Assembly: GCA_029978465.1 (NCBI GenBank)
Contig: JAPOJK010000003.1
Coordinates: 1 to 37,043, forward strand
Origin: Actinomycetota bacterium
Lineage (GTDB): Bacteria; Actinomycetota; Actinomycetes; Nanopelagicales; Nanopelagicaceae
DNA length: 37,043 nt
Reading direction: 5' to 3'
Shown: in pieces, positions 1 to 36,393 of the stretch
Numbering within the stretch: the first letter of the stretch is position 1
How the letters are laid out: each line of letters starts with the position of its first letter
The notes under the pieces: model-generated
What the model was told of the DNA's origin: nothing
Database searches by the model: none
What the model saw: only the letters and a program-made list of their open reading frames with translations
Translations under genes and position numbers: made by a program

Positions 1-789
1 CTGTTGCATTTAGGAACCACAGCCGATGCCGATGAAATCAAGGACACCGCAAACGCTCAACCTTTGATTGTTGCAACCTCTCTATTAGGTGCACATGCAC
101 TTGGTCTCACAAACTTTGCCGTAACTTCGGGACACTCCGTTGGCGAGTTAGCAGCTGCAGCGCTTTCAGGAGCAATCAGTAGCAGTGATGCTCTTTCCTT
201 AGTGCGCTCACGTGGCGTAGAGATGGCCAAGGCCGCTGCCGCATCACCTGCTGGAATGTCAGCTGTTCTTGGCGGAGATCGTAATGAAGTTTTAGCTGCG
301 ATCGCTGCGTTGAACCTTGTCGCTGCAAATGACAATGGTGCTGGACAGATCGTTGCCGCCGGAGATTTAAGCGCACTTGCTCAACTATCTGAAAATCCAC
401 CAGCCTCTGCGCGAGTTCGTGCACTTGCTGTTGCTGGTGCATTTCACACCTCTTATATGCAACCTGCTGTTGAACCATTGCGCGCACAAGCGGCAAAGAT
501 TGCAACTCACCCAGTTCAGATTAATGTGATTTCAAATAAGGATGGCGAAGTTGTTTCAGATGGCGCTGAAGTCTTATCACGCATCGTTAATCAAATTGCA
601 AACCCTGTGCGTTGGGATCTATGCATGGAGACAATGAAATCACTTGGCGTTACGGGTGTCATTGAGCTTCCACCCGCCGGAACTCTGGTTGGCTTACTCA
701 AGCGCGCTGCAAGTGAGATAGAAACCTTTGCATTAAAGAGTGCAGATGATTTACCGGCGGCGCGAGAGTTTGCAGAGAGGCACTTATGA
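1..789 (+). CDS. fabD: Malonyl-CoA:ACP transacylase (FabD), 5' end truncated by window start
   Basis: Open frame continues from base 1; GHSVGE nucleophile-elbow motif, AFHTSYM motif; first gene of a fabD-fabH-acpP-fabF order. Confidence 0.93.
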   Translation: MLHLGTTADADEIKDTANAQPLIVATSLLGAHALGLTNFAVTSGHSVGELAAAALSGAISSSDALSLVRSRGVEMAKAAAASPAGMSAVLGGDRNEVLAAIAALNLVAANDNGAGQIVAAGDLSALAQLSENPPASARVRALAVAGAFHTSYMQPAVEPLRAQAAKIATHPVQINVISNKDGEVVSDGAEVLSRIVNQIANPVRWDLCMETMKSLGVTGVIELPPAGTLVGLLKRAASEIETFALKSADDLPAAREFAERHL

Positions 790-1805
790 GTATCAAAGTT
801 GCACCAGTAGGTAACAGTCGCATTCTGTCGGTCGGTTCATACCGTCCCAAGCGATTAGTACCCAACTCTGAAATTGTGGATCGCATTGATTCAACTGATG
901 AGTGGATACAGCAGCGCACCGGAATTGAAACTCGTCGCTTTGCCGGAGATGATGAAACTGTTATTTCAATGGCTAAGGCCGCCTGCGAGATAGCGCTCAA
1001 GCGCGCAAAGTTAACAATTGCCGATATCGATACAGTGATTCTTTCTACTATTTCATACCCATTTCAGGCACCCAGTGCTGCCACAGAGTTAATCAATGAG
1101 TTAGGAAATCCAAAGGCTGCAGCATTTGATATCAGCGCAGCATGTGCCGGTTTTTGTTACGGCGTAGGCATGGGTAGCGATTTAGTTCGATCTGGTACAT
1201 CAAAAAATGTATTAGTAATCGGTGTTGAAAAGTTATCTGACTACACCGATCCTGATGACCGAGCGACAGCTTTTATTTTTGCAGATGGTGCAGGCGCGGT
1301 CGTTATTGGCCAAAGCGATCAACCGCGAATTGCTCAAACTATTTGGGGATCAGATGCTGATTCTCGTGATGCCATCACTTTGACGCCATCATTTTTGGAT
1401 TACAAGAAGAATCCCACTAAAGGTGTTGCAGATTTAGGATGGCCAAATATTTCACAGCAAGGTCAAACAGTGTTTCGATGGGCTGTGTACCAAATGAGCA
1501 AAGCTGGAATCAAAGCACTCGAAGCGGCGGGAATTACCGTCGATGAACTTGGTGCTTTCATTCCACATCAAGCAAATATCCGTATTATCGAAACTATGGC
1601 GAAGGAGATGAAAATTCCTGATTCCGTGTTAATCGCCGATGACATTAGAACAAATGGAAATACTTCAGCAGCGTCGATTCCCCTTGCGATGGATCGAATT
1701 TTAGAAGAGCATCCAGAATTGCATGGAAAATTAGCTTTGCTGATTGGTTACGGTGCAGGACTTGTGTACGCCGCTCAAGTAGTAGAGCTACCACCTCGAC
1801 CATAA
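786..1805 (+). CDS. fabH: 3-oxoacyl-ACP synthase III (FabH)
   Basis: 339 aa; DEWIQQRTGIETRR, DISAACAGFCYG (Cys active site), FIPHQANIRI, NTSAASIP motifs; ATGA overlap with fabD stop. Confidence 0.96.
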   Translation: MSIKVAPVGNSRILSVGSYRPKRLVPNSEIVDRIDSTDEWIQQRTGIETRRFAGDDETVISMAKAACEIALKRAKLTIADIDTVILSTISYPFQAPSAATELINELGNPKAAAFDISAACAGFCYGVGMGSDLVRSGTSKNVLVIGVEKLSDYTDPDDRATAFIFADGAGAVVIGQSDQPRIAQTIWGSDADSRDAITLTPSFLDYKKNPTKGVADLGWPNISQQGQTVFRWAVYQMSKAGIKALEAAGITVDELGAFIPHQANIRIIETMAKEMKIPDSVLIADDIRTNGNTSAASIPLAMDRILEEHPELHGKLALLIGYGAGLVYAAQVVELPPRP

Positions 1806-34514: not shown

Positions 34515-36248
<1,734 letters not shown>

Positions 36249-36253
36249 TTAAT

Positions 36254-36324
36254 GGGCGGGCTTTGTCATGGGTGAACCGGTACGACAAACCCCGCGGCGA
36301 GGGGACCGGTTATTTGGCCCCGCC
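36254..36324 (-). promoter_or_regulatory. leuA leader RNA with alternative pairings (candidate attenuator)
   Basis: Arms ACCGGTT/AACCGGT (36305-36311 with 36275-36281) plus CCCC/GGGG inner helix (36290-36293 with 36301-36304); competing CCCGCC/GGCGGG pairing (36319-36324 with 36255-36260). Confidence 0.55.
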
Positions 36325-36357
36325 ACGGCAGCTAAGGAGGAGGCTGCGGTTGATCAT
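36310..36357 (-). CDS. Putative leuA leader peptide MINRSLLLSCRGGAK (not in ORF track)
   Basis: ATG ATC AAC CGC AGC CTC CTC CTT AGC TGC CGT GGC GGG GCC AAA TAA; three consecutive Leu codons, upstream of leuA on the same strand. Confidence 0.72.
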   Translation of the reverse strand: MINRSLLLSCRGGAK

Positions 36358-36363
36358 GGGTTA

Positions 36364-36393
36364 AGGGTAACGCGTGTATTAAAGGACTGGCAA
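36364..36393 (-). promoter_or_regulatory. Candidate leuA operon promoter
   Basis: Minus strand TTGCCA-18 nt-TACCCT, ending 6 nt before the leader peptide ATG; overlaps the glnA 3' end. Confidence 0.45.

Follow-up and report, generated by a model that had tools for sequence, protein, structure and literature searches.

A leader element that precedes leuA in most Actinobacteria, the LEU element, was predicted in 2005 (Seliverstov et al. 2005, PMC1262725), and the text of that study describes a leader with Leu codons, a pseudoknot, a base stem between the Leu codons and the Shine-Dalgarno sequence, and an alternative hairpin. It also cites codon mutations in the leuA leader of S. coelicolor, which had some effect, though not that expected of classical attenuation. 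The LEU element has since remained a prediction whose mechanism is open, and no model of it exists in Rfam 15. Related leaders have been reported individually: leuA of Streptomyces lividans has a leaderless leader, LeuL1 (MRFGLLLLSCRGEGL), which is known from RNA-seq and has no terminator (PMC8079986); a leader of Corynebacterium leuA is given as cg4015 in PMC4046766 and as MNRANLLLLRRGGSQA in PMC5784534; and short RNAs of 85, 65 and 45 nt have been found for the leuA leader of M. tuberculosis (PMC3526491). In the literature searched we found nothing on leaders of Nanopelagicales, which are not among the lineages covered in the text of the 2005 study.

We analyzed a leuA leader within a stretch of 37,043 nt (hereafter the window, meaning the whole stretch of DNA) from a Nanopelagicales-type (acI) actinobacterium. 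Its leuA (34515..36230, minus strand) encodes 2-isopropylmalate synthase, matching NF002991 with 889 bits and TIGR00970 with 830 bits, both above cut-off, and the protein, which groups with Candidatus Planktophila/Nanopelagicaceae records, is 100% identical to LeuA of an isolate deposited under the name Actinomycetia bacterium LanE43. The element upstream of this gene is real and conserved, and belongs to a known but little-studied kind. By the anatomy described for the LEU element (PMC1262725), we identify it as a putative LEU element with all of the published parts: it lies upstream of leuA in an actinobacterium, has a conserved Leu-run leader (MINRSLLLSCRGGAK*), can fold into a pseudoknot (helices S1 and P2-outer, with compensatory changes in both) and has a base stem between the Leu run and the Shine-Dalgarno sequence (CTCCTT:AAGGAG, though without covariation), as well as an alternative hairpin (P2-inner, CCCC:GGGG, which excludes S1). 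Neither the published element nor the one in the window has an obvious terminator. An earlier note on this DNA had stated that leucine-codon leaders for leuA are known in Actinobacteria; missing from it were the identity with the LEU element and the complementarity of the Leu run to the leuA Shine-Dalgarno sequence.

LeuL1 of S. lividans and the Corynebacterium leaders are evident cousins of the SLLLSCRGGAK leader in the window. LeuL1 has LLLSCRG in common with it, is likewise leaderless and likewise lacks a terminator, but differs in its four consecutive Leu residues, its high-GC host and a start site taken from RNA-seq (PMC8079986). The Corynebacterium leader is also a short Leu-run leader before leuA, and by its description is a putative transcription attenuator (PMC4046766, PMC5784534). 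Like classical leu and trp attenuators of the E. coli type, the window element would combine a leader peptide that senses codons with RNA structures that exclude one another; unlike them, it has no intrinsic terminator, its leader is probably leaderless, and the target proposed to be sequestered is a Shine-Dalgarno sequence. Beyond what the cited papers describe, we add this lineage to those with the element, support the structure by covariation, argue for the base stem from codon bias, and report copies at leuC as well as the repeated replacement of the element by a leaderless leuA; the text of the 2005 study likewise does not extend to covariation counts, to a helix around the Leu codons (P0) or to a lineage-specific helix (P3).

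The leader and its conserved RNA helices

The 15-codon leader with CTC-CTC-CTT that the earlier note had placed about 80 nt before leuA is present on the minus strand, where it runs from an ATG at 36357 to a TAA at 36310. As leuA starts at 36230, 79 nt lie between the leader stop and the gene. The Leu codon run CTCCTCCTT occupies 36334..36342, and CTCCTT within it is the complement of AAGGAG (36237..36242), the Shine-Dalgarno sequence of leuA, giving the helix that we call P1. Leu-run leaders were present in all element-bearing relatives and in the distant actinobacteria inspected. On the same strand glnA ends at 36379 and is followed by a −10 promoter hexamer, TACCCT (36364..36369), located 6 nt from the leader ATG. 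The suggestion that the leader message is itself leaderless gained support from relatives, as a TANNNT motif stands 6 or 9 nt 5′ of the start codon in 63/64 Nanopelagicales leaders, compared with about 4% of other positions. The same promoter is kept at loci where the leuA coding start replaces the leader, which further supports a start of transcription at the leader ATG. Judging from the promoter, we infer that transcription would begin at or adjoining this ATG and that the leader message is probably leaderless.

Alignment of related leuA upstream regions showed that the Leu codons are kept and that compensatory changes occur in S1 and P2. S1 is the core of the element, an 11-bp helix between CCGTGGCGGGG (36318..36328, the leader's Arg-Gly-Gly-Ala codons) and CCTCGCCGCGG (36292..36302), both, like all strands given below, on the minus strand. 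Across 66 sequences from the class, 98.5% of S1 cells were paired, 39 cells were changed on both sides compared with 13.1 in shuffles, all slid registers were worse than the actual one, and the inner pairs occurred as GC:47/AU:14, GC:33/GU:19/AU:11 and AU:34/GU:22/GC:10. Because the shuffles ignore the relatedness of the sequences, we regard the slid registers and the variety of pair types as the stronger evidence. The pairing of GGCGG with a hairpin loop, previously proposed as a pseudoknot or exclusive alternative, proved to be the core of S1.

The hairpin in question, noted as ACCGGTT/AACCGGT plus CCCC/GGGG, is present on the minus strand. Its outer part (P2-outer, ACCGGT at 36305..36310 with ACCGGT at 36276..36281) covaries, with AU, GC and GU pairs and compensatory changes, and S1 and P2-outer together are predicted to form an H-type pseudoknot. 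The leader and the RNA structure have bases in common, the stop codon ending on the first A of ACCGGT. The inner part (P2-inner, CCCC at 36301..36304 with GGGG at 36290..36293) was 86% paired and, having bases in common with S1, is its exclusive alternative. Around the Leu codons, GCAGC (36343..36347) and GCTGC (36328..36332) form P0, a hairpin with these codons in its loop; in Nanopelagicales it was 95% paired and showed compensatory changes, and we rejected it as a class-wide helix, with just 69% of cells paired at that level. A further helix of Nanopelagicales, P3, has moderate support: GACAAA (36262..36267) can pair with TTTGTC (36289-36284), which it does in the minimum-energy fold of the leader region, and P3 was better than shuffles (p<0.05) in 21/64 Nanopelagicales. 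In five loci (L026, L030, L031, L038 and L044) an extra hairpin of about 30 nt lies between the leader stop and P2, leaving the core undisturbed.

In P1, 93% of cells were paired in Nanopelagicales and 87% in the 66 class-wide sequences, where five of the six pairs were kept in 85–100% of sequences and the last was broken in 26/66. We looked for covariation of P1 in both sets and found none, with pairing kept; because P1 hardly varies, it shows constraint rather than covariation. The Arg-Gly-Gly-Ala codons had also been proposed to pair with GCCCGCC nearer leuA. This pairing was indeed seen in close relatives but was weak, beating shuffles (p<0.05) in just 15/64, and, confined as it is to close relatives, we rejected it as the main switch. 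The earlier observation that no classical terminator is visible held as well: we found no convincing intrinsic terminator before leuA, the one weak match having 5 bp, a broken T-tract (tail TTTGTCGTAC) and an expectation of 0.4 by chance. With no GC hairpin and U-tract beyond this chance-level match, a classical transcription attenuator was rejected.

Leu codon choice and access to the Shine-Dalgarno sequence

The Leu codons of the leader run against the bias of their genomes. In GC-rich relatives, CTT makes up 3.5% of leuA Leu codons, yet 33/39 leaders have it as their final Leu codon, while CTG accounts for 59% of leuA Leu codons compared with 11/117 in leaders. In Nanopelagicales, CTC makes up 13% of leuA Leu codons and 62% (114/183) of those in leaders. 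AT-rich and GC-rich genomes thus reach CTCCTCCTT from opposite biases and each against its own, and this convergence is what pairing with AAGGAG demands. In GC-rich hosts the preference for CTT could be strengthened by the sensitivity of rare codons, and CTT could even be there as a codon responsive to tRNA shortage rather than for pairing; rarity cannot explain CTT in Nanopelagicales, because it is their commonest Leu codon (32%).

We modeled access to the Shine-Dalgarno sequence with a pseudoknot-free model in which a ribosome-sized block was placed on the Leu codons, at the stop codon, or nowhere, and the RNA ended at the leuA start codon. When leuA coding sequence was included the effect was slight, which probably reflects pairing between AGGAG and the start region. 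In 56 Nanopelagicales elements, the unpaired fraction of the Shine-Dalgarno sequence averaged 0.68 for a block on the Leu codons, 0.37 for one at the stop codon and 0.26 in free RNA (p=1.8e-8, a value that overstates independence because the elements are related). In distant elements (n = 39) the corresponding values were 0.31, 0.17 and 0.10, and there CTG or TTG in place of the Leu codons abolished the difference between stalled and stop states; in Nanopelagicales a smaller difference persisted after such swaps. In the window, Leu:Shine-Dalgarno pairing was nearly absent (0.01) in this model and accessibility shifted little (0.57 free, 0.76 stalled, 0.67 at stop), probably because P0 competes. 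The models favor translational attenuation, in which a stall would open the Shine-Dalgarno sequence and run-through would close it. Because the effect in the window is small and the Nanopelagicales difference survives the codon swaps, this last step is one that we infer.

A model for leucine control and its rivals

We consider it probable that the LEU element is a cis-acting RNA coupling leucyl-tRNA supply to leuA translation, with translational attenuation as the most likely mechanism. Transcription would start at or beside the leader ATG, and the leader would be translated as a leaderless message. With leucine plentiful, the ribosome would reach the stop codon and leave the Leu codons free; the free run CUCCUCCUU, which reproduces the anti-Shine-Dalgarno sequence internally, could then pair with AAGGAG of leuA, while the pseudoknot of S1 and P2-outer would draw both ends together, switching leuA off. 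With leucine short, the ribosome would stall on the Leu codons and cover them, so that the Shine-Dalgarno sequence would stay open and leuA would be on. When the first Leu codon is in the A site, the end of the ribosome would lie just before S1, which could put the pseudoknot at the leading edge of the ribosome. The alignment yields a covariation-backed structure, a class-wide distribution and a testable idea, namely that the sensor codons are also the silencing strand. To the fuller reading, that the Leu run doubles as a sensor read by the ribosome and an internal anti-Shine-Dalgarno silencing leuA, within a covarying pseudoknot, a leaderless reading and a mobile module (a leuC copy, several losses), we give slightly less than an even chance; if true, this double role would explain why earlier Leu-codon mutants did not fit classical attenuation.

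Stalling on the Leu codons might instead decide Rho-dependent or pausing-based termination within the leader, that is, transcription attenuation without an intrinsic terminator. The M. tuberculosis leader RNAs upstream of leuA (PMC3526491) could mean premature termination, which would speak against the coupling model; the mutually exclusive helices S1 and P2-inner also fit, and Rho has been suggested for similar cys leaders in the text of PMC1262725. As there is no terminator with a T-tract, and as this explanation does not account for the retained match between the Leu codons and the Shine-Dalgarno sequence, we think it unlikely. Alternatively, the pseudoknot could be the binding site of a regulatory protein, with the peptide secondary; orthologues of the ML1624 helicase have been proposed for such a role (PMC1262725), and a pseudoknot core conserved so strongly throughout the class would fit this published suggestion. 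We judge it very unlikely, given that almost all inspected elements retain a Leu reading frame whose register to S1 is fixed, and that its codons run against genome bias.

It is also conceivable that the Leu codons are only slow codons, that their pairing with the Shine-Dalgarno sequence is a by-product of being pyrimidine-rich, and that the switch lies between S1 and P2/P3 alone. The missing covariation in P1 and its often broken last pair agree with this, as do P3 pairings (of the GGGTTTGTC/GACAAACCC type) in many Nanopelagicales and the scarcity of P1 in the nested model of the window. Retention of the other five P1 pairs and the arrival of opposite codon biases at one run both speak against it, and we give it even less credence than the protein-binding site.

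Distribution and probable loss of the element

The leader and element were kept in 64/76 related leuA upstream regions, in line with the conserved leucine leader that had been suspected. From 38 of the 64 we built a covariance model (R1) without protein input, which matched in 119/151 genomes of the order and 189/297 of the class. Together with a folding z-score of −2.8 for the window region, these counts place the element far beyond chance. Among 199 genomes drawn from across the phylum, most of them not of this class, R1 gave four matches, two of them outside the class and both before leuA (L179 in G598 and L180 in G519, from one family). Among 50 inspected matches outside the order, 46 lay immediately before leuA or one of its paralogues, three upstream of leuC, also a leucine gene, and one was unassigned; since R1 saw no protein, this linkage is an independent check. 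A search of the leader region against Rfam 15 (T-box, leu leader, riboswitches) gave no match at gathering score, and at E<=10 the sole match was Poribacteria-1, with 15.6 of 74.2 bits.

The leuC copies have the same leader and pseudoknot (L161 301-434, plus strand; L166 301-433, plus strand; L175 about 701-830, minus strand) and occur in three genomes, all from a single actinobacterial family; two of the three also have the element at leuA. Three genomes have pairs of leuA paralogues, each with its own element (L167/L168 in G055, L171/L172 in G107, L173/L174 in G174). In G019, which already has an element at leuA, a second, lower-scoring match (L177, about 301-387, G019:C35) lacks a leader ORF, is not followed by a leu gene, and is perhaps a remnant.

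At the 12/76 loci without the element (L006, L008-L012, L014, L023, L075-L077 and L079), TANNNT stands in its usual leader place and leuA itself starts about 6–9 nt after it, often with GTG and without a Shine-Dalgarno sequence. At L023, TANNNT and leuA are separated by a remnant ORF of five codons that overlaps the leuA start. Nine further loci from element-negative genomes (L182, L183, L185 and L187-L192) look alike. The leuA tree requires at least six changes between element and leaderless leuA, all forced by well-supported branches; with the element present throughout the class, loss is their simplest explanation, and recombination between alleles a possible alternative. Freshwater lineages with leaderless leuA in place of the element offer natural regulator knock-outs. 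Public metagenome-assembled genomes titled Bifidobacterium breve or Streptomycetaceae have Nanopelagicales-type leuA (L011, L049, L063, L064, L069; L027, L032, L055, L058), which sits inside the Nanopelagicales clade in the tree; their names look wrong.
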